Positions 32,435 through 49,139 are shown, numbered from the stretch's first letter. The stretch is 64,000 bases of DNA from Candidatus Nitrosocosmicus arcticus (GCF_007826885.1 NZ_ML675579.1:124955-188954); one strand, 5' to 3'. Notes: generated by a model not told the origin, from the letters alone. Numbers and translations are program-made.

Positions 32435-33073
32435 TTGTTAAGTATATACCATATTATAGAATTGTCTGATAATGCTTTTACTTACGGTAATCTGATTCTA
32501 CTATATTGTAATTTTAATAGGGATGGTCTCCCAAACGGTCAAATAGACGATGAATCAGCCAATAAAACTGTCCATGACTCACTTCCCGATTTTATTACTG
32601 GAAGAATTGCATTATGCATCCAAACATTCGATATCATAATGAAATCTAAACCTGACAAGTTTAATACCTCTATAATCTTGATATCAAAAAGTGAACATAC
32701 TCGAGTCATAACCGATCAGTTGTTAGAGGGAGGTATTTCTGAGCAATACATAGAAAATGATAATAATTCTAAAACTATTGACGCTGTCATCAATAACGTT
32801 CTCTCTAAAATAACTAGTGTTACTAACCCTCCAACTATTTATTTTATCGGGTCGGTTTGGCAAAAAGAAGTTTTTGATTCAATTGTGGTTTCAAAACTCA
32901 AGAAATTTAAAGTTCATTTTGAGGGTGCACTTGATCATAGGCCATATGACGTTATACAAAAAGATAAACTAACTGAGGAACCAAAAAAAGGATCCAACTA
33001 TTATAAGCATAAATTAACCAACAAAGCAATAGACACACTCTTAAACTATATTTTTTCTAACAAAAGGAAGTAA
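32435..33073 (+). CDS. DUF218/ElyC-like protein
   Basis: 212 aa, TTG start. NTSIILISKSEHTRVITDQLLEGGISEQYIENDNNSKTIDAVINNVLSKI follows the DUF218 pattern (..SGG..HT..I...LLE.GI.E..II.E..S..T.EN). N-terminal half and C-terminal Lys-rich tail are not recognised. It may be co-transcribed with cobJ, which gives no firm functional clue. Confidence 0.6.
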   Translation: MLSIYHIIELSDNAFTYGNLILLYCNFNRDGLPNGQIDDESANKTVHDSLPDFITGRIALCIQTFDIIMKSKPDKFNTSIILISKSEHTRVITDQLLEGGISEQYIENDNNSKTIDAVINNVLSKITSVTNPPTIYFIGSVWQKEVFDSIVVSKLKKFKVHFEGALDHRPYDVIQKDKLTEEPKKGSNYYKHKLTNKAIDTLLNYIFSNKRK

Positions 33074-33158
33074 GAAATTATCAATATTAACTTTTCTTTA
33101 CCCAAAGATAACCATATTGGAAAAGTTTAATATCAGAATAAAATAAAGAAATTGTGTT

Positions 33159-33284
33159 GCGGTCATCGTCTAGTTTGGTTAGGACACTGGCCTTCCATAT
33201 ATAATTTCATATGGAGAAAGCCCGTAACCCGGGACTTTGTCTTTTAATAAAGACACAGCGGGAATTCAAATCCCGGTGACCGCA
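33159..33284 (+). tRNA. tRNA-Gly(TCC) with two introns
   Basis: Acceptor GCGGTCA/TGACCGC, discriminator A, D stem GTCT/GGAC, anticodon loop CTTCCA-A (anticodon TCC), T arm CCGGG-TTCAAAT-CCCGG. Two insertions interrupt it: intron 1 at 33198-33218 after position 37 (canonical site) and intron 2 at 33234-33264 between positions 53 and 54. Each holds a hairpin (intron 1 with its exon edge: CCATAT...ATATGG; intron 2: TGTCTTT-taat-AAAGACA). Without them the tRNA is 74 nt and folds normally apart from a T28-C42 mismatch. Its 3' exon is the core of the att-like repeats at 34936 and 47664. Confidence 0.9.
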
Positions 33285-33346
33285 TTAAGTATTGGAATTC
33301 ATATACTAGTTGCGCCAAGTATAAAGTGAAGGAAAGGAAATTAATG
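33282..33346. repeat. Left-end repeat after tRNA-Gly
   Basis: Sequence following the tRNA (tattggaattcatatactag ... aagtataaagtgaaggaa ... attaatg) matches ~47680-47743 (aataggaattctatattag ... aagtacaaagtgagggaa ... attaatg) at roughly three quarters of positions. Read as the left end of an element integrated at the tRNA. Confidence 0.6.
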
Positions 33347-33689
33347 TACTCACGGTATATCTCTCAAATTTGCAAGAATTTCTTGTATTTTAGATACTAG
33401 TTATATTATGTTTTCAAATTGGAATACGAAAAAGATAATGTCCGTTAAGGTAGTTACCCTTTTAAAAAAGATTGATTCTCCAAATAGTAAATAAAACGTT
33501 GCTGTTATTATTGATTGATTTTTATGATAATGTGTAGAGAAAGGATCATCTGGGAATCATATAATAAATAATTTGAAGGTCCTAATCGAATATGTGAATT
33601 ACCTAAATAAAACAGAATTATATGATGTAAATAATAAAGAGCATATTATTCTATTCTTAAATAATAAAATTAAAGACCAACCCATGGTG
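33285..33689. other. Intergenic stretch after tRNA-Gly
   Basis: About 400 bp, AT-rich, no gene seen apart from the left-end repeat. Confidence 0.4.
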
Positions 33690-34361
33690 TTAATCAGGAT
33701 TAACGATACTATTGGATCCGACCATTAATTTACCCAACATGGTAATATTAATTACTGTTTTACCTCGGTTGCCTTTATCTACTTCTACCAGCCCCAAGTC
33801 TGCTAATCCTTTATTATCCTTACCGCCTTGAACATGATAACTTAAGAGAGGTTTTCCATATCCTGAAATTTGTTCTAATTCTTCCAAACTACTTACCATT
33901 CCGCCAATGCTATCAATACTTTTTAGTATATTTATTTTGGTACCTGATACGATTTCGCTGTAACTGAAATTTAGAACCGGCCACAGTAAAAGCATTCTGT
34001 GATCATGATCCATTGTAAATGCTTTCGTTCCATTAATAAATGCTGATGAGAGTGCGGCACAATTAATTAATTTATCGCCGGAACTTACATTCATTAGTAT
34101 ATGCTGATATTCCATACTTTTCCTTAACACTACTTCACTAACTCTTTCAACTGTATCCTTTACGACGTTTTCCTTTTCAACAAGAATTATTTCTGAACCA
34201 ATACCGATTATTGTTTCAATCTTCTTGGAATATTCGATGGCTTTGGCTTCATCGCTTGAATAGCAAAGGAGTATGAGTTGATGAATTGGAAAATTTTGAA
34301 TCCCCAATGCTATCCCATCCTGATCATCGTCGCTAAACGTAGCAATTTGGAGAGTTTTCAT
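33690..34361 (-). CDS. CARF-domain winged-helix regulator (Csa3/HFX_2341-like)
   Basis: 223 aa from ATG 34361 (MKTLQIATFSDDDQDGIALGIQNFPIHQLILLCYSSDEAKAIEYSKKI). Rossmann-like sensor with the CARF-type loop ILMNVSSGDKLINCAALSSAF, then a linker and a wHTH (GKPLLSYHVQGGKDNKGLADLGLVEVDKGNRGKTVINITMLGKLMV). CARF domains bind cyclic or linear oligonucleotides. There is no CRISPR array or cas gene in the window, so this is probably a stand-alone defence or stress regulator carried by the first element. A TATA box (tttttaataaag) supports ATG 34361. Confidence 0.75.
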   Translation of the reverse strand: MKTLQIATFSDDDQDGIALGIQNFPIHQLILLCYSSDEAKAIEYSKKIETIIGIGSEIILVEKENVVKDTVERVSEVVLRKSMEYQHILMNVSSGDKLINCAALSSAFINGTKAFTMDHDHRMLLLWPVLNFSYSEIVSGTKINILKSIDSIGGMVSSLEELEQISGYGKPLLSYHVQGGKDNKGLADLGLVEVDKGNRGKTVINITMLGKLMVGSNSIVNPD

Positions 34362-35225
34362 TCTACGAATTCTAATAAGACTCACTTTATTAAAAAATGT
34401 TAGTATTCTTTCTAATTAAATTTGAATTCTCTAAATCTCTTTTAACCTAAAAATTTGTTAATTTTATCAATTTTCGTTGGTTACAACCACTGTCCTTTTA
34501 AGATCATCAGTGATATCACCTACATTTCCCAAATTGGGCATACAGTGTGTATAATTATTATTTATCACTTTAGCTTCAAGAAAATGCCAATAGTATCCTC
34601 ATTTGTGTTTGCCTATCTAAATAGAACCGAATCGATAGAGGTAGAATACAATACAAGATTATAATCATCAAGCCCAAGAGAATCTAAAAGTCTACTAAAT
34701 TTCAGATCAATAGTAATCCAGTATCTTTTAGTAGTGATTTTAAGTGATTAGATAAATTTATTAACAAAATGGCAAAATTAAATTTATACATTAGTTCCCC
34801 CTATACCTAATGGATTCCAAGCCCACCAAACCCGTACTTATCCATCTCATCATGGCATTTTATACATACAATCTAATAATCAACCTTGATTATCTTATCA
34901 TGTTCTAATTATATGAATTCCCAGACTACTAGATATCAAATCCAGATGAATCTCTGCTTTATTATCGAAAGGATTGATTCGGACAGTATATCCCATACTA
35001 TCGAAAAAACTAATCAAAATAGAATTATAATTATATTATACTTGATGTAAATTATGTGAGCCTACACATGAACCATGAAGTAACATACTTCTATATCATT
35101 CATTTTTGTTACACAGCGAGAGTGCAATTAATAGTTGATGATAACTTTATTGTTAAAGTTTTATATTTCAATATTTGGGTTTAGTGTTATTCTGTGGTTT
35201 TAAAGTTTGTAGCTAACCTTATTGT
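34362..35225. other. Gene-poor stretch containing an element boundary
   Basis: About 860 bp without a convincing gene; contains the right-end repeat 34822-34943. Confidence 0.4.
34822..34943. repeat. Right-end repeat, copy 1, with tRNA-Gly remnant
   Basis: Begins cccaccaaacccgtactt and shares cattttatacat, ctaata, tatcatg and gaattcccanactactaga with 47553-47670, in the same order and spacing. It ends in tcaaatcc (34936-34943), the T-loop end of tRNA-Gly; the rest of the tRNA remnant is lost. Interpreted as the right end of a small decayed element. Confidence 0.65.
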
Positions 35226-35530
35226 GACCAAATAAATCGTGGCTCTGGTAACAAGAGATCAAAAGTAAAAGGGTACAAAACTCATTATGATTCCTTGTAC
35301 GATGCTCTACTATATCTGTGAGTCATTATCCGATTCCATTAACTAAATATCGGATTACAACAAACAAGCACGTATTATTGTCGTTATTATCAAATCAATT
35401 TATCCAGCTGGTTAATGATAAAAACCTTTTATTAAATAGTGAATATGATGATGTTCCTCATTATATTATATCTCCAAAAGGAATAGAATATATCAAACGA
35501 TACGAATCGCTTAATCAGTTGTTTTTATAA
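35226..35530 (+). pseudogene. Broken winged-helix regulator (HTH_45 type)
   Basis: RSKVKGYKTHYDSLYDALLYL reads to a TGA (35319-35321), then in another frame HYPIPLTKYRITTNKHVLLSLLSNQFIQLVNDKNLLL...VPHYIISPKGIEYIKRYESLNQLFL to 35530. Together these give the usual archaeal compact wHTH, interrupted by one frameshift; no start codon is found for the first part. The 70-codon downstream frame alone lacks the first helix. Confidence 0.6.
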
Positions 35531-35655
35531 TTTAATTCATTAGCGATAATGGTGAGTTGACTTTATCTGTTTCATGAATTAACCCTATATAGCTGGATCT
35601 TTATAAGCAAAATCAATTATACTATAAGTGCTATCAATCCCTTAGATTATTATTA

Positions 35656-35961
35656 TGACTAACTATTCGACAGAAATAATAGAATGTCTGGCATTATGGA
35701 CCCAACAATTACAAAACTGTAAATGCGATCCCAATGTATAGAACAATGTAGCAAGGAGTTGAGAAAAAGGTTGGATACTATTTTTCCCCCCATCTACCAA
35801 ATTAGAATTTGATAATGATAAATCGTTATATTTTTTCTACGATATTTTTTTATCTAATAGGCTAAATAAAGCATTAATTGGATTGGTTGATACTTCATAA
35901 TCCAGTTGAATTAGATAAGGTCATAAAGGAATTTTTGAGTGAGATGAATGAAGTTAAGTAA
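35656..35961 (+). pseudogene. Decayed reading frame of unknown family
   Basis: From ATG 35656 (MTNYSTEIIECLALWTQQLQ) to TAG, then in other frames EQCSKELRKRLDTIF, KLEFDNDKSLYFFYDIFLSNRLNKALIGLV and HNPVELDKVIKEFLSEMNEVK to a TAA at ~35961. The segments join into one plausible ~100-aa helical protein with two to three frameshifts. Family not recognised. Confidence 0.4.
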
Positions 35962-36135
35962 CTGTTTCTAAAAAAATATAGATATTGACACTCTCCTTAA
36001 TGGTTAAATATTGTTATTGTTCTAGTTAAGACGAAAGACGGTGAGTTCCACTAAACAATAACTAGAATAAGTGTTTAAAAAACATTTTATTTATTAATTG
36101 ATTTTTTATTTTCTATTGTGGACCAATTCGAATTA

Positions 36136-36465
36136 TTAATAAACTAATCCTGCAGCCATCGTAATCTCGGAGACATTATTATAAGATTTTTCTTCTAAAC
36201 TACTTAATGAGGACAAAATCTTATCCTTGTTTTGAATAGACTGGTGTTGCCTTATAAATTCTAGAACCTTACTTTTTTCTACCGGAAAATCTAAATCTTT
36301 CAAAACCTGTCCTAATTCCGCTACTGTAGAATAGCTTTCCACACTGACTTCCTTTCTTTGTCCTTCGATAGCATTTTGCTGACTTACAAATTTTCCTGTT
36401 TGTCCCTCAGGTCCATCTTCCTTTGGAATTTGTTCTTTCTTTTCATTATTATATGAAGTGTTCAT
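36136..36465 (-). CDS. DUF2795-domain protein
   Basis: 109 aa, ATG start. C-terminal ~60 residues (YSTVAELGQVLKDLDFPVEKSKVLEFIRQHQSIQNKDKILSSLSSLEEKSYNNVSEITMAAGLV) match DUF2795 (V..L...L.G..FPA.K..L...A...GA......L..LP...Y....EV..A.G). N-terminal 45 residues are Gln/Glu/Lys-rich and disordered. Function unknown. Confidence 0.75.
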   Translation of the reverse strand: MNTSYNNEKKEQIPKEDGPEGQTGKFVSQQNAIEGQRKEVSVESYSTVAELGQVLKDLDFPVEKSKVLEFIRQHQSIQNKDKILSSLSSLEEKSYNNVSEITMAAGLVY

Positions 36466-36975
36466 ATGTTAAAATGGATACTATACTATATAACGACAAT
36501 ATTTTTCAAACAATCGTTCTTTAGATATTGGACCCAATTGATGCATGCGACCATGAAGCTAGTTGATAAATCAAATGTTAACTAAAATGTTAATGTGCAT
36601 CGTGCGATAGTCCTCATATACTATCTTCTATCCAAATTTGAGACTGAAAGCCTCAAAGCCATTTACAAAAATTAATGCTTACTTTTCTTCTAATTTCTTT
36701 AGAATATTTTTTAGCCTACCAACAACTATTTTTGTTTTTTCTCTCACGTTAGATTCAGTAGACAAATGTACAAATATTTCATCTATAGGCCAGTATTTTT
36801 TCTGGAAGTACTACAGACCAGATTATATAATTTATAAACAATCTCATCATCTTCTTCACGGCTGCCTGCTCATCATTATGTTAATTGTATTTGATAATAT
36901 ACTTAATATCCAATTTAACTGCTGTAACTAAATCATTACTAAAAAAGCCGTATTATTATAGCTATAATTGATTGG

Positions 36976-36985
36976 TTATAAAGCA
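36976..36985 (+). promoter_or_regulatory. TATA box of the small Ala/Lys-rich gene
   Basis: gttataaagc ~25 bp before ATG 37005; it supports that ATG rather than the in-frame start at 36972. Confidence 0.45.
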
Positions 36986-37004
36986 TGTTAATTATAACCA
37001 ATCA

Positions 37005-37163
37005 ATGACGGATAATTTTGTTGATGATGCAGCAAAGAAATTGAAAAATTCACAACAAGACGCTAAAGCAGAGGCTGAGACTGCAAAAGATCATGCAGAG
37101 GGAAAACCTAGCTCAGAAACACTAAACAAAGCAAAAGAAAAGGTAAAGGACGCTCTCAGTTAA
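37005..37163 (+). CDS. Small Ala/Lys/Asp-rich stress-type protein
   Basis: 52 aa: MTDNFVDDAAKKLKNSQQDAKAEAETAKDHAEGKPSSETLNKAKEKVKDALS, one long amphipathic, highly charged helix of CsbD/LEA style, like the protein at 2144-2350. Leaderless start from the TATA box above. Island cargo; function inferred only from composition. Confidence 0.6.
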   Translation: MTDNFVDDAAKKLKNSQQDAKAEAETAKDHAEGKPSSETLNKAKEKVKDALS

Positions 37164-37171
37164 TTTTTTTT
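37164..37171 (+). terminator. Oligo-T terminator
   Basis: Run of eight T immediately after the stop of the small stress-type gene. Confidence 0.45.
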
Positions 37172-37220
37172 ATTTTTCTTCTGTAAGTTTATTCAAGTTT
37201 AAAACCATATCTTCATTATC

Positions 37221-37270
37221 TGTATGAGAACCTCATTACCACAGGGAACTTAATCCCAACGGATGAGGAC
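37221..37270. repeat. Dispersed structured repeat, copy A
   Basis: agaaCCTCATtaccacaGGGaacttaatCCCaacggATGAGGac: outer stem CCTCAT/ATGAGG and inner GGGA/TCCC around AACTTAA. Related copies at 41061 and 42650. Confidence 0.55.
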
Positions 37271-37332
37271 TTATAGTTGATATCTTTTAAGATGTTTCAA
37301 AAAAATTGGGGATACTATCCTGGTATCGTTGC

Positions 37333-38823
37333 TTAAACCGCAGCATCTATTGTTTTTCTCCTTAGTATAAATGCGAATCCAAGGGATACTGCCGAAAGTA
37401 ATAGAGCAGTAAAATACACCAGATCATATGACTGAGCTGATGGATATGATCCCTGGGTTCCAATATTCTCATGATCGGCCATATAAACTCCCGCCAGTGC
37501 GGGACCTATTGCCATACCTATAAACAATAATAGTGCACCAATTCCTACGGATATTCCAGTAAATTCTTTTGGGGAGGAGGATACTATTAAATTCCAAGTT
37601 GTAGTCATTGTGAGCGATAGGCCTGTGGCAATTATGGCTAAATCTACAGAAACTATGAACTCCGTTGCATGGAACATTAGTAATCCAAATGTACCAAATA
37701 GGCTAATGATTCCACCAATTATGGCCGGTTTTGTACTGCCTATTCTATTTATTATAAATGGAGTGACGCTTGCAAACACCAGAAAACTGATCATAAAAGG
37801 TAACTGAACATTTGCAGCATCTATTGAATCACCTCCAAAACCTAACGGAATTGGACTCCTCACCAACTGGACTATCGTGGGATAAATCATGAACATAGCG
37901 ATTCCAGTAGATATTAGTAGGATAAATGAAGGTAGAAGGGTTTTGTCTCGTAACAATCTCAAGTTAACGAACGGAGGTATAGCCCTTCTTTCTATTATAA
38001 CAAAGATAAGTAATGAAATTGCAGATATAATGAATGCTACAGCAATTTGGAATATATTTTCATTACTTATGCCGATTTGTATGACTGTAAGTGCAATGAG
38101 AAATGAAGTTATTGTAACTGAAAGAGCCACTATACCTTTAATATCTATCGAAAACGGTTTTCCTTTCTTCTCTGATACATCTCCTTGTATGTTTGAATTC
38201 TTTGATCGATTTGGTAATTCGTATTCCTTTACAAATCTTGCAATCAATAATGTGACCAAAATAGAGAAAGGTATTATAGCCAAGAAAGTAGCATGCCAAC
38301 CAAAGGTTTGAATTATGCTAGCTCCAACTAATAGTCCAACTACTGAACCAGCTGAATACGCAGAACCAAATACCCCTACAGCTATAGATAATTTGGCCGG
38401 TGGAAATGTATCTCGAAGAAGACTAAATGCAGCTGGAACTGCTGCTAATCCAACACCCTGAATAATTCTTGTAATGAGTAGAAAAGTTATGTTATCTGCA
38501 AATCCGCCAGCGATGAGTCCTGCTATATATATTACAAGTAATGATAGTAATACTTTCTTTTTCCCAAATAGATCCGAAAGTCTACCAGCAATTGGGGTCA
38601 TCACTGCAGCTACAATTAAGTAAGCACTGAATATCCATGCAGCCGTTCCATAAGATATATCAAAATCATCGATTATCTCTGGTATTGCAGGCAAAAGCAT
38701 GGTTTCTGAGAAAAAAACTGTCAATAGGGTACTACTAAGAATTGCTAAAGTTAACCACGCATGGCGACTAACAACCGTCTTTGCGTTAATCATATTATCT
38801 TTTTCACTTCTATCTTTGATCAT
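37333..38823 (-). CDS. MFS drug-efflux transporter (DHA2/EmrB-QacA type)
   Basis: 496 aa, about 14 hydrophobic helices. N-terminal half has FFSETMLLPAIPEIIDDFDISYGTAAWIFSAYLIVAAVMTPIAGRLSDLFGKKKVLL, the MFS loop 2-3 motif (GRLSDxxGKKK), and RIIQGVGLAAVPAAFSLLRDTFPP. Expected to export lipophilic compounds by proton antiport. Preceded by a perfect inverted-repeat operator identical to that in front of the Cys-rich gene at 39866, so it probably belongs to the HxlR regulon. Confidence 0.9.
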   Translation of the reverse strand: MIKDRSEKDNMINAKTVVSRHAWLTLAILSSTLLTVFFSETMLLPAIPEIIDDFDISYGTAAWIFSAYLIVAAVMTPIAGRLSDLFGKKKVLLSLLVIYIAGLIAGGFADNITFLLITRIIQGVGLAAVPAAFSLLRDTFPPAKLSIAVGVFGSAYSAGSVVGLLVGASIIQTFGWHATFLAIIPFSILVTLLIARFVKEYELPNRSKNSNIQGDVSEKKGKPFSIDIKGIVALSVTITSFLIALTVIQIGISNENIFQIAVAFIISAISLLIFVIIERRAIPPFVNLRLLRDKTLLPSFILLISTGIAMFMIYPTIVQLVRSPIPLGFGGDSIDAANVQLPFMISFLVFASVTPFIINRIGSTKPAIIGGIISLFGTFGLLMFHATEFIVSVDLAIIATGLSLTMTTTWNLIVSSSPKEFTGISVGIGALLLFIGMAIGPALAGVYMADHENIGTQGSYPSAQSYDLVYFTALLLSAVSLGFAFILRRKTIDAAV

Positions 38824-39319
38824 ATCGACTTACCTTATCTCATTAACTATAATAAGGTAAGTATTTAAAATAGTAGGTGACGATTTGGTGAGTAGATGGA
38901 AATTGGAAGACTAAATAATTATTAAAGAGAGTTATAAAAAGGTACCCTATAGATTCTACACGAAGTAATGATTAAAAGGATGTGAATATTATTTCACTCA
39001 TCATATATCAAATGAATACACTTTAACCTACAAAAATTTATCATTTTGACGTTCAAATAATTTGTTCCAATTTAAACTAAATAGAGATATTGAAACGAAA
39101 TATATGAGAAGTCATGTTAATTGCTGCCTTTTACTTTTATACGATAAGAAAATTCAGAAAGAAAATTAAAGCAAGTAATATGTAATATCTCGTAAGATGG
39201 TCACCAGTGTTTCAAATAGCAAATCCACCAATCAATTCTGTTTTTCTCTTCCTGTAAACTTAATTAAAGTCAGAATCTGGGAACAACGGTTTCAAATTAA
39301 ATGCAAAAGGTCTGTTTAT
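38824..39319. other. Intergenic stretch with operator
   Basis: About 500 bp between the MFS gene and hxlR-type gene; apart from the operator next to the MFS start nothing is seen. Confidence 0.4.
38828..38862 (-). promoter_or_regulatory. Promoter-operator of the MFS gene
   Basis: ACTTACCTTAT (38828-38838) and ATAAGGTAAGT (38852-38862) form a perfect 11-bp inverted repeat with a 13-bp spacer, ending 5 bp before the MFS start. Read on the minus strand its first ~21 bp are the same as 39825-39845. Likely bound by the neighbouring HxlR repressor. Confidence 0.7.
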
Positions 39320-39775
39320 TTACATATACTGTCTAATAGATTTGGCAGTTATCTTTCCAATTTTAATAGGATCGGGATTCTCAAATATTTGATCGCAACA
39401 ATATTTGACCGAAAATAGCGCCATTTGTTCCATTATCGGTTGTAGTTCTTTACCCTTTTGAGTAAGATAGTATTCTATCCTAATGGGAGTTTCATTATAT
39501 ACATGACGTTTAATAAGACCATCTTTTTCCATTTCTTTTAGCCGTATTGACAAGGTTTTTGGGTTAATCTCTTCTATAGAATTCAGAAATTCATTAAATC
39601 GTTTTTGTTTATCATAAAGCATATTACGTAATATTAAAAGAGAAAATTTTTTACCAATTATATTAAAGGTGTTAAAAACAGGACAACATTTGCATTCCAT
39701 ATCCTCTATTAGCCTTTGGTGATTTAGATTTCCCTTCTTTTCTTGACATTGTTCTGAGGTTTTGAGGTCTACCAA
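39320..39775 (-). CDS. HxlR-family transcriptional regulator
   Basis: 151 aa, TTG start. wHTH with CKCCPVFNTFNIIGKKFSLLILRNMLYDKQKRFNEFLNSIEEINPKTLSIRLKEMEKDGLIKRHVYNETPIRIEYYLTQKGKELQPIMEQM, the HxlR signature (C.....L.IIGGKW...IL..L..G..RF.EL......I....L..RLKELE..GLI.R). Cys cluster CKCCP at the N-terminal end is a candidate redox or electrophile sensor. Sits between the MFS gene and the Cys-rich gene, with ACTTAC repeats in its own promoter. Confidence 0.9.
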   Translation of the reverse strand: MVDLKTSEQCQEKKGNLNHQRLIEDMECKCCPVFNTFNIIGKKFSLLILRNMLYDKQKRFNEFLNSIEEINPKTLSIRLKEMEKDGLIKRHVYNETPIRIEYYLTQKGKELQPIMEQMALFSVKYCCDQIFENPDPIKIGKITAKSIRQYM

Positions 39776-39793
39776 CTTAACAACCCTATATCT

Positions 39794-39846
39794 ACTTACA
39801 GATCAATCACTTACCGGTTTATATACTTACCTTATTATAGTTAATA
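39794..39846. promoter_or_regulatory. Operator region between hxlR-type and Cys-rich genes
   Basis: ACTTAC occurs three times in the same orientation at 39794, 39809 and 39825, spaced 15-16 bp; the last extends into ACTTACCTTATTATAGTTAA, the same as the MFS promoter. The TATA for the leftward gene (tatataaa) lies between repeats two and three. Confidence 0.65.
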
Positions 39847-39865
39847 ACACAAAGTGATTTATGAA

Positions 39866-40246
39866 ATGGTAGAAACTCAATGTGATTCAAATTGTGCGGC
39901 TTCCACTAGAACCGGAGAAGCGACAAGACATAGGCAGAATAGTTCTACATGTGGATGTCAAACGATATCTAATGATTGCAACAGCTGTTCTTGCTGTGAC
40001 ACCGATCCTATTGAAACAACAAAGAACCTATTAGAAAGCTCATTTTTTACAGCACTAAAAGAAATTCATGTGGACAAAATTAAGAAAATTATTGAAAGAG
40101 AATGGGGAAGTACCATTGATAGAACCGCCGAATTAGCTGTCAAAACTATTGAAAAACAATGGCAAACCTCCGTATCATCATCAGTTACGAACAAAGAATT
40201 CTATGAAGAACTAGGAAAGATAATGACATCTAATAGCAAACAATAA
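39866..40246 (+). CDS. Cys-rich small protein of the HxlR module
   Basis: 126 aa from ATG 39866 (GTG 39854 is in frame upstream). The first ~45 residues hold eight or more Cys (CDSNC, CGC, CNSCSCC), likely a metal or redox site; the rest is helical (ETTKNLLESSFFTALKEIHVDKIKKIIEREWGSTIDRTAELAVKTIEKQW). No family recognised. Its promoter matches that of the MFS gene, so both are probably controlled by the HxlR regulator. Confidence 0.65.
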   Translation: MVETQCDSNCAASTRTGEATRHRQNSSTCGCQTISNDCNSCSCCDTDPIETTKNLLESSFFTALKEIHVDKIKKIIEREWGSTIDRTAELAVKTIEKQWQTSVSSSVTNKEFYEELGKIMTSNSKQ

Positions 40247-40361
40247 CCGTAAGAGAATGTTATTTTAATTCCATCATTTTTTATATCGTTGTACTCTAAG
40301 GAACAATAGTTAACCGTGTTTAATTAAGTATTAGTCTATCTTGATGCCTTCCGTAATATAT

Positions 40362-40580
40362 TCAACTAGTCCCTAAATCTAGAAGAGAAGAATGCTCATT
40401 ACAATAAAATGCAAGCCTTTCTATAAAATAAGACCATCCTCCTTCATATTGTGTAGTGTCTCCATGTAGACCAGAATGTATTAAAATTACTCGAGTTTTG
40501 GTATTATCTATTGGTCCAAGAATCCAAGTAACTATAGATTCAGGATAGACTACCCAAATTATCGTCCCAGAATTGGTCAA
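40362..40580 (-). pseudogene. C-terminal remnant of an AHSA1 (SRPBCC) domain protein
   Basis: 72-codon frame. IIWVVYPESIVTWILGPIDNTKTRVILIHSGLHGDTTQYEGGWSYFIERLAFYC matches only the last third of AHSA1 proteins (..TRVTLTHSGF......Y..GW..FL..LA.Y.). The N-terminal two thirds are missing; it overlaps the end of the ArsR gene by 41 bp in another frame, suggesting a deletion joined them. Confidence 0.65.
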
Positions 40581-40833
40581 AGAATTGACTCATTGGTGCC
40601 ATACCTTCTCTATTAACCGAATATGCTTTGTTTTGTCCTATTTTCCTTTCTTTAACAAGATGTGATTCCCTTAATATTTTTAGATGAACTGAAACAGCCA
40701 GTAAAGAAAAACTAAACTGTTTTGATATTTCGCTTGGTGTCTTGTCACTATCCTTGAGTATAAGTATTTGTCTTCTACTATCATCATTGATAGCCTTTCC
40801 ATGCCGAATCCACAGTATTAAATAATTAAGCAA
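40540..40833 (-). CDS. ArsR-family winged-helix regulator
   Basis: 97 aa, ATG start. GKAINDDSRRQILILKDSDKTPSEISKQFSFSLLAVSVHLKILRESHLVKERKIGQNKAYSVNREGMAPMSQFFDQFWDD is the ArsR pattern (..DP.RR.IL..L......V.ELA......S..HLK.L...GLV...R.G....Y.L). No metal-binding Cys. Such ArsR genes are commonly paired with an AHSA1 gene, of which only a fragment remains here. Confidence 0.8.
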   Translation of the reverse strand: MLNYLILWIRHGKAINDDSRRQILILKDSDKTPSEISKQFSFSLLAVSVHLKILRESHLVKERKIGQNKAYSVNREGMAPMSQFFDQFWDDNLGSLS

Positions 40834-41060
40834 TTACTTATATTTAATAAACGAGGGAGAATAATTGGAATGAACTTTGGTTCAGAGGTTGCTACAGTAA
40901 GTAAAGGTTCAATCATTGGTAACCTCAGATAATATTGATTCAATAAGCCCGCATTGCCAGCATTGAACTTTTAGAATTGATACCAATATAAAAATGAGAT
41001 TTGTCCATAAATCGCTAAAATCTGAATCGTATGATTTTAGATACAATGTATAGACAAAAT

Positions 41061-41105
41061 ATAGAACTCGCTACCTCCGGGAACTTAATCCCCAGGCACG
41101 AGAAC
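41061..41105. repeat. Dispersed structured repeat, copy B
   Basis: atagaaCTCGctacctccGGGaacttaatCCCcaggcaCGAGaac: same loop as copy A but outer stem CTCG/CGAG, a compensatory change. Confidence 0.55.
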
Positions 41106-41229
41106 AATAACATTCTTGCAGTCTCATATTTTCCCAACCTTTATAATTTCCTATTCTAAAACTGCTAGAATATTAGAGTATTGCAGTCAGTTAGCAATCC
41201 CAATATATTTTTTCTTACATCCTAAAGGT

Positions 41230-41484
41230 ATGAGCAAAATAAAAACAACTCGTACAAGGAGCAAAGAACCATGGGTCATGTTTGGCCTGTTAACAGTAGC
41301 AATGTTGTCGATGTCGTTGGTCGTTGTGATGGGAGTATCACATCCATTACTGCAAGAGGTCGAAGCGAAGACATGGCATCTTGATCTTCCGCTAAAGACT
41401 AAAGAATGCAAACTAGATACAAACCCCTCTGGACCATCGTGCAAACCTGATATACAATCAAGTGTAATTGTTGAGTTCAGATAG
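41230..41484 (+). CDS. Small exported or membrane-anchored protein
   Basis: 84 aa from ATG 41230, ~25 bp after a TATA-like box (atatattttt). N-terminal Lys/Arg (SKIKTTRTRSKEPW), hydrophobic span (VMFGLLTVAMLSMSLVVVMGV), then a polar tail with two Cys (KECKLDTNPSGPSCKP). Upstream in-frame residues are not needed. Function unknown. Confidence 0.6.
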   Translation: MSKIKTTRTRSKEPWVMFGLLTVAMLSMSLVVVMGVSHPLLQEVEAKTWHLDLPLKTKECKLDTNPSGPSCKPDIQSSVIVEFR

Positions 41485-41892
41485 CCATAGCTTTGAATAG
41501 AAATGAGGTAACATTCTAACCTTAGCAAATACTCTATTTTTTATTTATTAAAACTCACTAGATGTTGATAACCACTATAAATAATTGATACAATATCAAC
41601 AGTCTATACTATAACCCGTAAAAATCCTTAATTGGAAACATGATTTAAATTAATCAACGCCGCAATATTTAAATGAAACAAATCTCCAAACAAAATTAGA
41701 ATCGCTTTTATAGAACCGATATCAGCATGAATTTCCACGGATTCGAACTGTTACTAACCGCTATTTGATATCTAGGTTTTTGATAGAGTATAAGATAGAA
41801 ATAGAATGTCTTGACGCTACAGGATTTCCTTGAATGAAGCGTCTCCAAGAAGGAAGGAACTCTTATCTATATATGCATGTAATTGATCTCTT

Positions 41893-42363
41893 ATGAAAAT
41901 TATTAGTGCCACCTCCGAAATTCCCAGTATGACCAAGGAAGAAGCAGAGAAATTTCTTGAAAGTAAATTGAATTTGCAGTTGGCTACTATCGATGAGCAA
42001 GGTAATCCAAATATCCAGCCCGTCTGGTTTTACTATAACAAAGATGAGGAAAAACTCTGGATAAACACATCTAAATCAGCTAAGAAAACTCGAAATATCC
42101 GAATGAGGCCAACTATTTATTTTTCCATAGATGATGAAAATCCTCCAGTTAGGGGAGTTAAAGGTAGAGGTATTGCAACCATAATAGAAGATCCAAAAAT
42201 AGTTGTTCCACTAGGAGATAGAATTAGTTTGAAATATCTTGGCACACTAGATCATCCTATAGCAAAAATGATATCAGAAGATTCGAAGAAGGGGGAAGTT
42301 GTACTTATTGAAATTGGTCCAAAGTTCTTTTCTACTTGGGATTACGGTAAAATGCAGTTCTGA
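41893..42363 (+). CDS. Pyridoxamine 5'-phosphate oxidase-like flavin/F420 protein
   Basis: 156 aa split-barrel protein: MTKEEAEKFLESKLNLQLATIDEQGNPNIQPVWFYYNKDEEKLWINTSKSAKKTRNIRMRPTIYFSIDDENPPVRGVKGRGIATI. This is the PNPOx-like/FDOR pattern (LATI...G.P...PVWF...). Binds FMN or F420 and reduces small substrates, or degrades heme in some members; role here unknown. Confidence 0.85.
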   Translation: MKIISATSEIPSMTKEEAEKFLESKLNLQLATIDEQGNPNIQPVWFYYNKDEEKLWINTSKSAKKTRNIRMRPTIYFSIDDENPPVRGVKGRGIATIIEDPKIVVPLGDRISLKYLGTLDHPIAKMISEDSKKGEVVLIEIGPKFFSTWDYGKMQF

Positions 42364-42990
42364 TTTACTTATAATTAGCTCTATTCTCCTTTTTACATTA
42401 GTATTGAATTCTGATTAAATTTGTCTATTAAATGATTGTATTTTTAAATGATTTATTGGTTTAAAAATATGGTTGAGAATATTATTGATTGATATAAAAA
42501 AATCCTGAAAATCTAGTTATTTATTCTTTTAGTCAAAGCTCATTGACCGGTATGACAATGGTTGTACATTTAGAAGCTGTACTCAAGGACGCTATCATAT
42601 TAAAGTCACCAAATTCTTTCCTAACTTTTCACATAGAAATATTCATTCTGTATTAGAACCCTGCTACCACTAGGAACTTAATCCCCACGAATAAAAACTG
42701 CAACTATAATTTGCTTGTTTGATGATTACTTGAATTTTTCCGATAGCGATTTTTTTCGAATTATCGGTTTGCAAAAATAACAATATCATTATGGATATTG
42801 GACAAACATATAATGATCATGATAGCGAATCCAAGGATGACATTGGGATCAAAATATGGATGATGAATCCAATTCTCCTACAGGGAATGAACTAATCGTA
42901 TTGAAATACAAGTCCAATTTTTATAATTCTTTTCTTTCTGGCCTAGGTTATCCATAATAAAAGTACCTACGATTATACCTATTCTCATAT
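42364..42990. other. Intergenic stretch with repeat copy C
   Basis: About 630 bp, AT-rich; contains the third dispersed repeat and no gene I can support. Confidence 0.4.
42650..42700. repeat. Dispersed structured repeat, copy C
   Basis: ctgtattagaaccctgctaccactagGAACTTAATCCCCACGaa: same core as copies A and B; outer stem is weaker, so probably a decayed copy. Confidence 0.5.
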
Positions 42991-43170
42991 AACCACCCGT
43001 GTTTCCTCCTTGTAATAATTTTACATTATTATGTCCAAGATGTTTAAAAATCCAATATTTTGTATTTGAAAAATTAAGGTCCAGATTAATCCAAATACAA
43101 TTAAAGGATTTGTGAGCCAATCATTTTCCCTAATGGAGATAGGTCTCTTGCAATATCTTGCCGTAGAATT
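42914..43170 (-). pseudogene. Rhodanese-domain remnant
   Basis: One minus-strand frame contains CIWINLDLNFSNTKYWIFKHLGHNNVKLLQGGNTGGYM, which fits the middle of thiosulfate sulfurtransferases (..RAYW.LKYLGHKNV..LDGG..GW). The catalytic Cys loop and both ends are missing. Decayed fragment. Confidence 0.45.
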
Positions 43171-43209
43171 AATTAATTATCTTTAATAATTGATAAAAAA
43201 TTATTTACC

Positions 43210-43503
43210 TTATTCAGATTCAAATCCAAAGAGGTCATCTATATAGCCATTTTCTCTAAACTCTTTTTTATAGTAGAAATATCCCTTCTCGCTGTTTTGG
43301 TTGTTTGTATTGGATGTATCCAATTTTCCTGTTCCGTTCGACTCTACGGCTGTTGGCTCAAATTTTTCTAAAATCTGGAGATGCTTTCTCATATGCCCTT
43401 GAAGCCGGACTCCTTCGCTTTGTAAACATTGGTCTAGTTCCAAATTGCATTTTAGTGTCAAAACCATTTCAGAAAAGCAATGTGGGCATTTCAATTTCAT
43501 CAA
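43210..43503 (-). CDS. Zinc-finger-like small protein
   Basis: 97 aa. KCPHCFSEMVLTLKCNLELDQCLQSEGVRLQGHMRKHLQILE has a CxxC, two further Cys and a HMRKH pair, so a C2H2 or mixed zinc site is likely; the C-terminal half is disordered and acidic. Two ATG codons (43503, 43500) are possible. Function unknown. Confidence 0.55.
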   Translation of the reverse strand: MMKLKCPHCFSEMVLTLKCNLELDQCLQSEGVRLQGHMRKHLQILEKFEPTAVESNGTGKLDTSNTNNQNSEKGYFYYKKEFRENGYIDDLFGFESE

Positions 43504-43676
43504 TTTGTTTCATTTTGTGTATTTATGCGTTAGTTAAACTTTTACTAAACAAGTTTGTCAAAATAATTAAAGTTTCCTAGAATGCACAAAAAACTACTTT
43601 TTTTTTATTCAACTCAATGATGTTATTTGATATGTAGTTACTATCTATTGAACCATCGCTCTCTTCCATTCCCTTC

Positions 43677-43907
43677 GTGGCGTTTAGCAATGTATTGATA
43701 ACAAAACACGTGCATGAGAAATTCCAATTATACACTTCTGAAGTTCTTATTCGACCAAAGGGGCATACCATTGAAGCTCACGTCAATATCAAATTAGATC
43801 CTACTTTGACGCTTGAAGACACTTTAAAGATCACCGATGAGGTAAAGGCATCTATATCTCCTGAATTTAAGATAAAAGATCTGTTTGTAATTCCAGTCAC
43901 ATCATGA
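43677..43907 (+). CDS. Stand-alone cation-efflux dimerisation domain (CDF C-terminal)
   Basis: 76 aa, GTG start. VHEKFQLYTSEVLIRPKGHTIEAHVNIKLDPTLTLEDTLKITDEVKASISPEFKIKDLFVIPV matches the cytoplasmic ZT-dimer domain of CDF zinc/iron exporters (V.....V....G....H..I..D..L.L......T..I...I...F.I....V.P). The six-helix transporter part is absent, so this is either a truncated gene or a free metal-sensing domain. Confidence 0.6.
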   Translation: MAFSNVLITKHVHEKFQLYTSEVLIRPKGHTIEAHVNIKLDPTLTLEDTLKITDEVKASISPEFKIKDLFVIPVTS

Positions 43908-43945
43908 TGGTGAATGTAGAAATGCATATACAAGCATCTTCTTGA

Positions 43946-44317
43946 TTAAGTAGATCTTGTTCGTTTATCTTGATAGTCTAAATCATCACCATCATTGTTT
44001 GCTTCGATCATAATAACAAGATCTGCATAATCTGAGATTGAACTCTCACGCTGCGAATAAATAATGTATAACATGTCCCAGCCAGCAGCTTCAATTAAAT
44101 ATATTTTCCTGGCTCGATTGTAGGATATGAACGAATTATTTACCAAGTGAAGTATGTATTCTCTCAAAATTACTTCCGACTTTGAAATAACTCTCGCAAC
44201 ACTTGATTCAATCTCCGAGAATGATGACCCCTTTATGCATGCTAATAAGATTGATTCTATAATAGCTACCTTTAGATAAATTGGGTGTATGTTTATTTTA
44301 ATATATTCCTGATTCAT
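43946..44317 (-). CDS. Winged-helix regulator
   Basis: 123 aa, ATG start. IIESILLACIKGSSFSEIESSVARVISKSEVILREYILHLVNNSFISYNRARKIYLIEAAGWDMLYIIYSQRES is a wHTH of the thaumarchaeal HTH_45 style (helix, recognition helix, wing with R.R..Y.I...G...L). Acidic C-terminal tail. Target unknown. Confidence 0.65.
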   Translation of the reverse strand: MNQEYIKINIHPIYLKVAIIESILLACIKGSSFSEIESSVARVISKSEVILREYILHLVNNSFISYNRARKIYLIEAAGWDMLYIIYSQRESSISDYADLVIMIEANNDGDDLDYQDKRTRST

Positions 44318-45498
44318 TTAATCTTTGTTACCTTTTATTTCATGAATTAAAAAAATTGAAAACTTGCATTTAATAAATAATGCTGAAATTAACAACTATT
44401 TACTAAAGGATGAAAGGATCTTTATCTACTCGACATCCGTACTAATCTAATTATTTTAAACATTTGTGTTAGCTAGTTGACACTGCTAACTCAACTCGTC
44501 ATAATATTTACATGGATGACGGCAAATTATTGTCTGATTCATTAATTATTTCCTTCTTGCATGTTTGTTCCGTTAAGCATTTCACCTATTGTTAAAGTTG
44601 GATTGTTTGGATAAGTTAGATTAGAAGAATATTCTATTGACGATTATGATTCAACTAGAAGTACAGTCTCGTTATGGAAAGAAATTACTATGGTAGAATT
44701 CCCAGAAATATTAAGAGACCGGATTTAATCACGTGATTATAATGCTATAATAATATAAATAATTCCAAGATGTTGCTACTGAAGTTTTGTAGATTTGGCT
44801 GGGGCCATTAAAATATTATATTTGAATTCTCAAAACAATGGATTTCTTATAAATAGCAGAAAAAAATAGCGAGTTATTCACAGGTCTGCTAATATTCTCA
44901 CCGAACCCGCGTGCCTTTGCTAATATTTTTACGGTTTTTTGACTAATTAAACAAAATGAACTCTAAGGGTAGTTATCAGCCAGCATTCATATAAATAAGA
45001 AAATGGCCGTGATCATTTTGAAATTGTTCAATCTCTTCATGTTTCAATCAGATGATGAGTTGCAGGTTTGACAGACCAGTGAATATCTTTTTTCGGGTAA
45101 ACCCTCTTTAATAGCAGTAATTGCTCGCTAATAATAGTCATAGATTCAATTATGTTATATCTTTCATATAGAATCAGTAACGTTAATTATTCCTGTCATG
45201 CCTTCCGGATGATAAGTTCCGTAATTCATAATGTCTAAGATAAAGATATTGTTGCAGGGGTTCCTGCCAAATCCATGAGGAACAAGATAACCATAAGCGA
45301 CGATAAACTTTATTTGATGGGGGGACAATCTAATGAAAATTGAAATGAGATGCACAGACAAACATTGCTGAAAAAAGATTATTCTATAAAACTAAAGGAT
45401 TTGGCATACCTAAATATATTGATTGGAACACTCTTGACTAGGGTTTAGGAGAATAAACTAACCTCTAATCATAATTATTTCTTGGTATTATACAATTG
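44318..45498. other. Gene-poor island stretch
   Basis: About 1.2 kb, AT-rich. A 35-codon piece (44621-44728: LEEYSIDDYDSTRSTVSLWKEITMVEFPEILRDRI) looks like the end of a lost gene. A minus-strand frame at 45164-45361 is open but resembles nothing I know. Confidence 0.4.
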
Positions 45499-45933
45499 TC
45501 ACTTTGTTAGTGATGACGCATTTATTGTAAGAACATTAGATATCTTTTCTGTTCCTAGAGTGTTGGTCAAGTAAACATCCGCATTGACTCTTTGTATGGC
45601 TTTGTCTGTGAAAGACGTTGCAAATTGAATAGTGCCAGATTGACCTACTACGTATCCTTTTTGAATGGATGATGTTTTTAAAGGAGTTCCATCAGGCAGA
45701 GATACTTTCATAGTTCCAGTCATAGGGGTGTTAACTACTGATAGATCATTTGTATTATAATCTACAAGAACCTTAAGTTGGTTAAAATTAGTTTCTGATA
45801 AGGGGGCATACTTTACAGAGGTTAGCTGAATTGTTATCTTATTTGGTGAAGCTAGACTATCGGTTTGTTGATTGACTTGTGCATATACATTGTTACTCAT
45901 TCCAACTGACTCTTCATTGATGATAATGGACAA
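45499..45933 (-). CDS. Exported protein; true N-terminus unclear
   Basis: The frame from TTG 45933 gives 144 aa: SIIINEESVGMSNNVYAQVNQQTDSLASPNKITIQLTSVKYAPLSETNFNQLKVLVDYN..., a beta-rich, low-Cys extracytoplasmic protein. In the same frame upstream, a clear signal sequence is encoded (KKWRRLLFVTKSKIAITTIVISIILSLSIII, to ~46009), so the protein surely starts earlier, yet no ATG, GTG or TTG exists there; the first candidates are CTG codons at 45993 and 46023. Either an unusual start is used or the start codon is mutated. Confidence 0.6.
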   Translation of the reverse strand: MSIIINEESVGMSNNVYAQVNQQTDSLASPNKITIQLTSVKYAPLSETNFNQLKVLVDYNTNDLSVVNTPMTGTMKVSLPDGTPLKTSSIQKGYVVGQSGTIQFATSFTDKAIQRVNADVYLTNTLGTEKISNVLTINASSLTK

Positions 45934-46109
45934 AGAAAGTATTATGCTAATTACAATAGTAGTGATAGCAATTTTTGATTTTGTAACAAACAGAAGTCGT
46001 CTCCATTTTTTGTTTGTGGTCAGTGTATTTTTTTTTAATGAGTTTGATGAGTAAGATAAAGTTACACCTATTGACTTATTTTTATTGGAATGTAATATAA
46101 CTAATAATG

Positions 46110-46470
46110 CAGTATCTAATTGAACTTAATTATAACAAAAATATTGTTAATTTTTTTCTTTCATTTTCTTCTCCTTAAGTATTATAGTATTGAGCCAGTG
46201 ATAAAAAATAAAATAATAAAAGGGACTATAAAATCAGCACGAAGGTTTCTGGAATCTGTATCGGATCAGATTTCTTCATGGTAATTTGATTAAGTATTAA
46301 CTAACATGGAATGCAAGAAAGTTAGAGAATCAAGAATGTTCTGATTTATGCTGTATCACAATTAATGATAAAAGGAGGTTCTGATCGATGGAGACTTGTA
46401 ATAACACAAATAAGGAGATTCAATTCGTTCTACATGTGGTTAAATTATGCCCGTTTACTGCGTTTGTAAA
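46110..46470. other. Intergenic stretch
   Basis: About 360 bp, AT-rich, no feature found. Confidence 0.35.
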
Positions 46471-46480
46471 TTTATAAGCC
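46471..46480 (+). promoter_or_regulatory. TATA box of the microprotein-zinc knuckle pair
   Basis: tttataagcc, ~26 bp before ATG 46503, predicts a transcript starting at that ATG. Confidence 0.5.
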
Positions 46481-46502
46481 TCAGAATCTAACTATTTTTA
46501 GA

Positions 46503-46577
46503 ATGTCTCTTGATGAAGATGTTCAGAATAATTTAGAAAATATGAGAAATTTAAGAGTGGTACACCTGAATAAATAA
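46503..46577 (+). CDS. 24-aa leader microprotein
   Basis: MSLDEDVQNNLENMRNLRVVHLNK, starting at the predicted leaderless transcript start. Its stop overlaps the next start as TAATG (46575-46579), so translation of the zinc protein is probably coupled to it. No homologue recognised. Confidence 0.5.
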   Translation: MSLDEDVQNNLENMRNLRVVHLNK

Positions 46578-46768
46578 TGCTATATCATAAATTAAAGTTA
46601 GAAAACCTAAAGATAATCAGTGATAAAACTAATTATTTAGACATGGATCGTGCTAAGATTCCTATTGTAGAATTTGTTTGTGATAAATGCAATCTGACTA
46701 TGGAAAACCGACAATTTCCATCCAAAGTAGATCTCTTCTGCATTAACTGTAATCTGCCCTATCCTTAA
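46577..46768 (+). CDS. Small zinc-knuckle protein
   Basis: 63 aa. Central CDKCNLTM...FCINCNLPYP gives two CxxC pairs (a zinc ribbon) after a Lys/Leu-rich helical N-terminus. TAATG overlap with the 24-aa frame. Function unknown; similar in size to the zinc protein at 47152-47313. Confidence 0.6.
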   Translation: MLYHKLKLENLKIISDKTNYLDMDRAKIPIVEFVCDKCNLTMENRQFPSKVDLFCINCNLPYP

Positions 46769-46854
46769 TTTCTTGATAATTTACGTTACTTTCAACTACT
46801 TTTCGAATAGAAATTTAAGATTTGAATTGTTATTCATGATTTATTCTTGTTAAA

Positions 46855-47061
46855 CTAATTTTTCAGAGAAAATTTATTATTAGAAAATTTTCTTGCTTTT
46901 TCTAGTATATTATGATAAGTTACTATTTGTTGAATAGCCATGCAAATTATAAAAAACACTGTGAAAATCACAGCTAGGAAAAAAGTTAGATATCCAAGAA
47001 AATTCATAAACACTGTGAAAATCACAGCTAGGAAAAAAGTTAGATATCCAAGAAAATTCAT
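46855..47061 (-). CDS. Small membrane protein with duplicated helix
   Basis: 68 aa, ATG 47061, TATA-like box (aaatataaataaaatg) ~25 bp upstream. The first 36 residues are two exact copies of MNFLGYLTFFLAVIFTVF, followed by FIICMAIQQIVTYHNILEKARKFSNNKFSLKN. The second copy also begins with ATG, so a 50-aa form may be made too. Function unknown. Confidence 0.55.
   Translation of the reverse strand: MNFLGYLTFFLAVIFTVFMNFLGYLTFFLAVIFTVFFIICMAIQQIVTYHNILEKARKFSNNKFSLKN
46954..47061. repeat. Perfect 54-bp tandem duplication
   Basis: 46954-47007 is repeated exactly at 47008-47061 with no spacer. 54 bp is 18 codons, so the duplication keeps the membrane protein frame. Confidence 0.9.
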
Positions 47062-47151
47062 AAATTTTCATCTACGTCATTTTATTTATATTTTTAGATC
47101 TTTTTTTTAGTTCCTTCACTATTGCCTATTAAGCCAACAATTATACTCTGA

Positions 47152-47313
47152 CTAATTAAAATTATAATCTGATTCATCACATTTAGATACATGTCCACAG
47201 CTAGGACAACTTTCAAGATTTGAAAAATGTCTATGAAAAATCTGTCCCTCCAATCGGTATATGTTTGAAATGTGGTTAAAATCACATTGTTTACATTTTA
47301 TCCTAAGAGTCAT
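47152..47313 (-). CDS. 53-aa zinc-ribbon protein
   Basis: ATG 47313. Cys pairs KCKQCD (Cys7, Cys10) and SCPSCGH (Cys36, Cys39) frame a short strand region (HISNIYRLEGQIFHRHFSNLE), so a compact zinc ribbon; tail SKCDESDYNFN. A different minus-strand frame over the same region (47094-47285) is a shadow with no cysteine pattern. Function unknown. Confidence 0.65.
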   Translation of the reverse strand: MTLRIKCKQCDFNHISNIYRLEGQIFHRHFSNLESCPSCGHVSKCDESDYNFN

Positions 47314-47552
47314 AGTATAATATAATACTGCATAGTACTTTAGTCTTTTTTTATAAGGCCGTTAGCAATCGTCTTACAAGGTTTGCTGATTTAATTTATA
47401 TAATTAATCACCTATCTTATACTCGTTTGAAATTAATTATTATTTTGGAGCGTGGCAGGGCGGTAATAGTTAAAGTTTGAAAAATAATAAAATCTCTTAA
47501 TATTGCAAAAATCGTAGAATTAATAACGAAATCTCCCAGATCTGTGAATAAT

Positions 47553-47682
47553 CCCACCAAACCCGTACTTTTTCTGTTATGTCATTTTATACATGGCTCT
47601 AATACTCCCGCTTAATTATCTACCATCATGCTTTTAGCATGTGAATTCCCATACTACTAGATGTCAAATCCGGTGACCGCAT
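47553..47682. repeat. Right-end repeat, copy 2, with tRNA-Gly 3' remnant (att-like)
   Basis: cccaccaaacccgtactt ... gaattcccatactactagatg, matching 34822-34943, runs straight into TCAAATCCGGTGACCGCAT (47664-47682): 18 of 19 bases of the tRNA-Gly 3' end (one C missing). Read as an attR-like junction of an element that integrated at tRNA-Gly. Confidence 0.75.
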
Positions 47683-47743
47683 GTACAATAGGAATTCTAT
47701 ATTAGTTTTCATAAGTACAAAGTGAGGGAACGATTATTAATGC
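47680..47743. repeat. Left-end-like repeat, copy 2
   Basis: Matches the sequence directly after tRNA-Gly at 33282-33346 (ggaattc, tatattag, aagtacaaagtgagggaa, attaatg). If 33282-33346 is an element left end, another element or the original chromosome flank begins here. Confidence 0.55.
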
Positions 47744-48319
47744 CTCCTGAAATAGCCTTAAACATAATTATTTGCTACATTTTAATTATTGGTTACATTA
47801 CTTTTAAAATTTAAACTTCATATAGAATATGTCCCTAAATTTGGGATTCTCTTGACTCATAAAAACATTTTTTTGCTAAATCTTGCATAAGCTTGATCCA
47901 TCATTAAATTACTATTGAAGGTTACATCACATAATTTTTCTAATTACCTGAATACAAGATAGGTAATTTGTTTTTGAGATTAATAACATACTTACTGATT
48001 TAGATGATATCGTAATTATGATAGAGTATTACTCATAAATATCCTTATACACAATACCTGGTCATAGAATGATACTATCAATTGATGCACTTCATTTAAT
48101 AAGTATGCTTGTTCGGCATCATCATTACTCCATATATGCATTTGATTCTTTCAGAAAGGGTGGATCAATTCAGAAATTAACCTAGAAAATGTTATTTCTT
48201 GTCTATTCAAATTCAATCAAGATTTACTTTTGATCTTATTACAAATCAGCCTGATACGCGAATGAACAATGTGTATAGTGATATAGCATATGAGTGGGTA
48301 ACTAATTGTAAATTCTAGA

Positions 48320-49102
48320 TCAATCAATTCTCAAAGTTTTATTCGCGACTATTACGCCTATTAGTAACATGATGGTAGCAAAAATTATGAGATAAAAAAA
48401 ATACAACCAGTTAGCATTAGCAATATTGCCAGAAATAATAATTTCTCTTCCAAACGTAGACGAAAATGAAACGGGATTTAGGTTTGAAATTATTTGCATC
48501 CAAGTCGGAAAGTTTTCGTTTGGAAACAGAGCAGTACTAGAAAACATCAGAGGAAGGTTTATGAAGTTGGATACTACAGTGGGGATTTGCCAGTCTGAAC
48601 TTTTCATTGTTAAGAATAGATATATCGAAGAAAGACCTAAACTAAGAAGGAATAATGATACTATAAAAGCCACTAATCCAATTATGTCCGGAACTTGTAC
48701 GCCAAATAACATTATACCAGCAAAGACGATTGGAACTTGCAGCATCCCGCGGGTTGAAGCTCCTAATACTTTTGATAGGAATATAGTATAATTTCTAGTA
48801 GGGGTGACCATTATTCTTCTTAGATATCCAGATTTCTTATCTTGAATGAGACTTAATGAACTAAACATTCCTACAAATAGCATCGAAGTAGAAAGCTGTC
48901 CTGATACAAGGAATGCTATGTAATTATCCGTATGAAAGAAATCTTCAAGAAACGCTCTTGGTGCGGAAGCAAAACTGCTCCCAAAAAAAATTATCCATAA
49001 TAAAGGTTGGATGATGCTTAATACGATTATGGCAGGACTTCTAAACGTGTTTTTTATTTCCCTCACATACAATCCAATAAGTTGATTTAATATTCTAATC
49101 AT
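48320..49102 (-). CDS. ABC-2 type transporter permease
   Basis: 260 aa, six membrane helices; ABC-2 features such as NTFRSPAIIVLSIIQPLLWIIFFGSSF near the start, GYLRRIMVTPTRNYTIFLSKVLGA, and the C-terminal LNPVSFSSTFGREIII. Pairs with the ATPase gene immediately upstream (37 bp gap) to form a drug- or lipid-type exporter. ATG start. Confidence 0.88.
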   Translation of the reverse strand: MIRILNQLIGLYVREIKNTFRSPAIIVLSIIQPLLWIIFFGSSFASAPRAFLEDFFHTDNYIAFLVSGQLSTSMLFVGMFSSLSLIQDKKSGYLRRIMVTPTRNYTIFLSKVLGASTRGMLQVPIVFAGIMLFGVQVPDIIGLVAFIVSLFLLSLGLSSIYLFLTMKSSDWQIPTVVSNFINLPLMFSSTALFPNENFPTWMQIISNLNPVSFSSTFGREIIISGNIANANWLYFFYLIIFATIMLLIGVIVANKTLRID

Positions 49103-49139
49103 TCTTGTCTCAACTTTTTATACTCGGTTTTGACAGACT

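Follow-up and report, generated by a model that had tools for sequence, protein, structure and literature searches.

The window analysed here is a stretch of 64,000 nucleotides, corresponding to positions 124955 to 188954 of contig C2 in a 2.64-Mb genome of 22 contigs, and its host is probably a soil ammonia-oxidising archaeon of the family Nitrososphaeraceae, belonging to Nitrosocosmicus or very near it. A tRNA-Gly(UCC) gene lies on the plus strand at window positions 33159-33284 and was recognized by comparison with relatives; it contains two introns, one in the anticodon loop (33198-33218) and one in the T-loop (33234-33264), the latter followed by exon 3 (33265-33284). Because of these two introns, the unspliced gene gave no match by ARAGORN or by Rfam at the gathering threshold. 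Once both were removed, ARAGORN returned a 74-nt cloverleaf, and the anticodon loop, CTTCCAA, read by eye as UCC, which confirmed the tRNA-Gly that an earlier note on this DNA had placed here. The T-loop intron, which hides the gene from common tRNA finders, has fixed flanks (ACT...AGCGGGA) and a variable middle; it was present in 27 relatives and not in two Nitrososphaera-like genomes (G025 and G032), and is thus family-wide apart from the Nitrososphaera-like genomes. Elsewhere in the window, a minus-strand Rfam tRNA match at 8125-8182, covering model positions 10-63, is probably another interrupted or altered tRNA. Exon 3 of tRNA-Gly contains the 18-nt attachment core (attL), CAAATCCCGGTGACCGCA, at 33267-33284 on the plus strand.

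Directly behind the tRNA, on the same strand, we found a left arm (33285-33420) with the motif TATTGGAATTCATATACTAGTT at 33290-33311, and then a tyrosine integrase pseudogene (33423-33677, plus strand) that consists of the N-terminal 85 codons, carries four stops and is 67% identical to the N-terminus of the integrase in G014, the nearest relative (E about 1e-27). The earlier note overlooked this scrap and considered the integrase lost; no full gene is indeed present in the island, but the loss is not complete, since the broken N-terminal piece stays. The DNA alignment with G014 is unbroken from 33000 to 33676 and ends there, and G014 keeps a longer integrase at exactly the place of the scrap. 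As that note had anticipated, a tyrosine integrase was found beside tRNA-Gly in relatives: G014 and G001 hold longer, apparently frameshifted copies, and G036 holds an uninterrupted frame of 465 codons about 80 bp behind the core. In all, integrase pieces lie behind tRNA-Gly in 11 genomes, and none was detected within 1.5 kb behind it in G013, G009, G005, G007, G002, G004, G003 and G031. The assignment as a tyrosine integrase is based on a PF00589 match that is weak and often below the cut-off, a PHROG integrase profile match (E 6e-12), and the catalytic Arg, Lys, YxxR, Trp and Tyr, which by eye are kept in the alignment of the relatives (A1); the window scrap is without the catalytic domain. 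Neither the single sequence nor the alignment found a relative among viral contigs, and a PDB profile search with the alignment gave no meaningful relative.

Elsewhere in the family, related integrases lie behind genes for tRNA-Pro, -Ile, -Arg and -Lys. The genome under study itself holds one of 467 uninterrupted codons behind tRNA-Lys(UUU) on contig C6 (L126:11312-17146), with a Prim-Pol protein nearby (L126:11312-14275), and this is a candidate intact element; over the 27 kb that separate it from the start of the contig, no attR was found. At three further loci (L157, L172 and L174), integrases of the same family are preceded by a tRNA-end-like core and a left arm with no whole tRNA, an arrangement that would be expected inside tandem arrays or circular forms.

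The far side of the island is formed by a right end (47553-47664, plus strand) with GTGAATTCCCATACTACTAGATGT just ahead of the core, and homologous right ends are found in G014, G006, G036, G008 and G001. It is followed by the attR core CAAATCCGGTGACCGCA (47665-47681, plus strand), which is one C short of CAAATCCCGGTGACCGCA, so that the 3' end of tRNA-Gly stands as a direct repeat at both island ends, with 18 nt at 33267-33284 and 17/18 nt at 47665-47681. Behind attR lies a second left arm (47682-47812, plus strand) with AATAGGAATTCTATATTAGTTT, which G014 and G006 share; the integrase that belonged to this arm is gone. The previously noted resemblance between the DNA behind the tRNA (33285-33420) and that behind attR was recovered, with an alignment score of 46 against a shuffle maximum of 30 when the tRNA part was left out, and 69 against 38 when it was kept. 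A left arm directly 3' of attR was observed here and in G014 and G006, with a similar one in G036, and the corresponding sequence in G008 and G001 is too worn to judge. Because the second left arm adjoins attR at 47681, an earlier element occupied the site before the later one arrived. A search of 47.7-53 kb for the distal boundary of the older layer gave no convincing core or right end.

Another copy of the right end lies within the island (34822-34943, plus strand). Its homology to 47553-47682, which had been proposed before, is clear, with a local score of 105 compared with a mean of 19.4 and a maximum of 28 in 500 dinucleotide shuffles. Both copies had been taken to terminate in the 3' part of tRNA-Gly; this is true of 47665-47681 (17/18) but not of the copy ending at 34943, which carries another core, CAAATCCAGATGAA, agreeing with the tRNA-Gly core at only 11/18 positions (CAAATCC and a few further bases). 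We set aside the interpretation of this sequence as a decayed tRNA-Gly core, since it recurs in other genomes: CAAATCCAGATGAA follows the same type of right end in G014 (on C101, inside the island) and in G007. A form one base shorter lies beside a right end on contig C21 of the genome under study, and the core position next to the right ends of G013 and G002 is occupied by still different sequences. No left arm was found behind any right end with a non-Gly core (the middle copy and those in G014, G007, C21, G013 and G002), and these sites may represent another target or an old rearrangement. At the C21 locus (L041, 6489-8068), the 46807-47386 cassette occurs again next to the right end, and the two are arranged as they are in the island of G014. 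On C14, four 14-nt matches to the right end were rejected as element ends, being part of a separate intergenic repeat.

The two homologous right ends had led to the proposal of two att-bounded elements in tandem at tRNA-Gly, one of 1.7 kb (33285-34943) and one of 12.7 kb (34944-47681). We consider this division unsupported and unlikely, since the middle copy has neither a tRNA-Gly core nor a left arm after it and its own core recurs elsewhere. The DNA ahead of it also argues against a 1.7-kb unit: the block 33674-34734 starts where the integrase scrap breaks and matches, at 82%, a place elsewhere in G011. This block holds a gene for a Csa3/HFX_2341-like regulator (33690-34385, minus strand; Pfam matches weak and below the cut-off), a family with copies in many genomes and several per genome across the genus; CRISPR genes were not seen near 33690-34385.

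The remaining cargo is similarly composed of segments with counterparts in the genus. The segment 35080-35894 is repeated on C15 of the same genome and in G014. A relocated block of about 3 kb (37279-40290), containing genes for an MFS transporter (37333-38823, minus strand) and an HxlR regulator (39320-39775, minus strand), is 84-88% identical in DNA to a block that sits at another locus in G011, G012 and G013, where its neighbours are conserved; the left-flank neighbours of that locus are found here on C9, without the block. The genes for the MFS transporter, the HxlR regulator and a pyridoxamine-oxidase-like protein appear undamaged. A cation-diffusion transporter fragment (43677-43907, plus strand) comprises the dimerisation domain only (ZT_dimer, E 4e-4, below the cut-off) and is probably a broken gene, which together with the integrase bears out the suggestion of broken genes between the repeats. 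Two cargo stretches are common to the island of G014, one at 43935-44819 (92% DNA identity) and the other, with small zinc-ribbon-like proteins, at 46134-47552 (91-94%); at the place corresponding to 46794-46808, G014 is longer by about 2.3 kb. A small membrane-protein gene contains a perfect 54-bp tandem duplication at 46954-47061.

An intergenic repeat around GGAACTTAATCCC is present at 37219-37271, 41054-41106 and 42647-42699, and also on contigs C9, C14 and C20. This 13-mer has 17 exact copies in the genome versus 0 for the reversed control, and the repeat, which forms clusters whose members mostly share an orientation, was found in 13 of 15 genomes from the genus.

Pfam and PHROG scans of the cargo revealed no virus or conjugative-element marker, and the whole island had no match in a plasmid collection. 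The cargo is a patchwork of ordinary genus genes. With so much ordinary genus DNA in it, the island is more than one element simply inserted. Homologous recombination is a likely contributor to its interior.

Next, we compared the corresponding sites of relatives. The distance from tRNA-Gly to the ABC permease gene (window position 48320) is 0.7-1.4 kb in G013, G003, G002 and G009, in which the island is absent, and it is 2.8 kb in G005, 4.2 kb in G007 and about 10 kb in G012. The uninterrupted tRNA-Gly locus envisaged by the earlier note was therefore approached at the near-empty sites of these four genomes but not fully matched, since left-arm traces remain at several of the short-spaced sites, which are island-free but not pristine. 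Nitrososphaera-like outgroups have no left arm and no island, and a homologue of window gene 52338 lies within about 60 bp behind their tRNA. The 18-nt core CAAATCCCGGTGACCGCA recurs beside right ends in G014, G008, G001 and G036; it also occurs in G033, 1.65 kb 3' of tRNA-Gly, where a unit of this length separates the tRNA from the second core and is followed by a homologue of gene 51801. No single contig assembled in the genus carries both an uninterrupted integrase at tRNA-Gly and its right end. The first conserved genes after the island are, across most of the genus, an ABC-2 transporter pair (48320-50108, minus strand), which lies behind tRNA-Gly in G013, G003, G002, G009, G005 and G007. 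In G008 and G033 this pair does not occur in the interval from the core to gene 51801, and it may therefore have been added even earlier; no end sequence was found in support.

From the ends, the cores, the integrase scrap, and the near-empty sites and fuller integrases of relatives, we infer an order of events and a recombination chemistry in which the region is very probably a layered graveyard of integrase elements at a tRNA-Gly(UCC) hotspot, produced by serial integration and later decay. In the tyrosine-integrase elements of Nitrososphaeraceae, attP would recombine with the final exon of tRNA-Gly(UCC), and since attP brings an identical 18 nt, the tRNA would be restored. After integration, the left arm and the integrase would lie just behind the tRNA, and the right end with its copy of the core at the far side. 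Re-use of the site would stack the elements, each newcomer adjoining the tRNA. The latest recognisable layer would thus extend from 33285 to attR at 47681, with the left arm of an earlier one at 47682-47812. Later, the integrase would have decayed to its 85-codon scrap, and the interior would have been rebuilt from genus genes; on these two grounds, the island is probably immobile now. The claim of serial integration by related elements made in the earlier note was accordingly sustained, as two left arms stand behind two cores and relatives have the same architecture.

The fact that only one integrase scrap is left could also be explained by one integration followed by an internal duplication of the ends, with the second left arm duplicated in place. 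This is very unlikely, since the left arms in the window are strongly divergent from each other, whereas the older one matches the sequence behind attR in G014 and G006. The divergence is therefore older than the separation of these genomes.

The left-arm motif has the form TAYGGGTTCATATACT (GGGAATTC in the Gly lineage) and lies a few bases 3' of the tRNA end at the targets read. It follows tRNA-Gly in most genomes of the genus, and this distribution, along with a cargo that largely has homologues elsewhere in the genus and includes one moved 3-kb block, could suggest that the chromosome itself has a conserved feature behind the tRNA, such as a terminator or processing signal, and that no integrase was involved in the origin of the island, which would then go back to homologous recombination or to a duplicated tRNA end. 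Such an origin is highly improbable, and as the sole cause it is largely refuted, by integrase scraps and fuller integrases at the exact place, by right ends with a core common to several genomes, and by the restriction of the motif at other tRNAs (Pro, Ile, Arg and Lys) to places that carry this integrase family. Moreover, the motif is missing behind tRNA-Gly in 8 genomes (6 from other genera of the family and 2 Nitrososphaera-like), and it thus belongs to the element and not to the chromosome.

The left-arm motif further seems to resemble the T-arm of its target: the motif is GGGTTC at several targets that have no T-loop intron, and GGGAATTC at tRNA-Gly, whose gene reads GGGAA|TTC owing to its T-loop intron. 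A permutation test on 10 pairs of T-arm and left arm gave 0.003 for a better-than-random pairing and 0.024 without Gly, values that serve as a lead only, the sequences having been chosen and trimmed by eye and being mutually related, and the test having been devised post hoc. It is conceivable, if rather doubtful, that the Gly lineage tuned its own DNA site to the intron-exon junction, in which case the intron would be no shield and would have been followed by the integrase.

The serial-integration reading places the island among known systems. Cryptic integrated elements of thaumarchaea use tRNA 3' ends as targets, including those of intron-containing genes, and have short att sites with a median of 17 bp (Krupovic et al. 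2019, PMC6563490). The island resembles these elements in its tyrosine integrase, its tRNA 3' end with an 18-nt att site in an intron-containing tRNA, and its lack of identifiable virus or conjugation genes, and it is a well-resolved new case of this class. It differs from them in being decayed, layered and rebuilt in its interior from genus genes, and in that one tRNA is used recurrently across the genus and neighbouring genera. The name Nitrosocosmicus does not appear in the text of PMC6563490. Re-use of one site by successive elements is cited in PMC6563490, and arrays are discussed in a review of archaeal tyrosine recombinases (PMC8371274); the older left arm behind a newer attR agrees with such arrays, whereas the case in the window is known from remnants only, with integrases that are mostly broken. 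The suicidal (SSV-type) integrases treated in PMC8371274 are likewise archaeal tyrosine recombinases that act at tRNA genes and leave integrase pseudogenes in the chromosome. In contrast to the SSV type, the core here is not part of the integrase gene but precedes it by about 60-220 bp, and integration therefore leaves the gene unsplit. Consistent with this, the integrase copies in G036 and on C6 are uninterrupted after integration, with no gene splitting of the SSV type. The breakage of the integrase in the window is later decay.

Relative to the open-licence papers searched, this case contributes a series of sites that spans the genus at a single tRNA, with ends defined to single-base precision; the attachment site falls entirely in the last exon of a tRNA gene with two introns. 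The stages stand side by side, from an element-free outgroup through a left arm only, an integrase scrap and an uninterrupted integrase to stacked layers. The turnover of integrated elements in Nitrososphaeraceae thereby becomes measurable, and exact ends are available for annotation.
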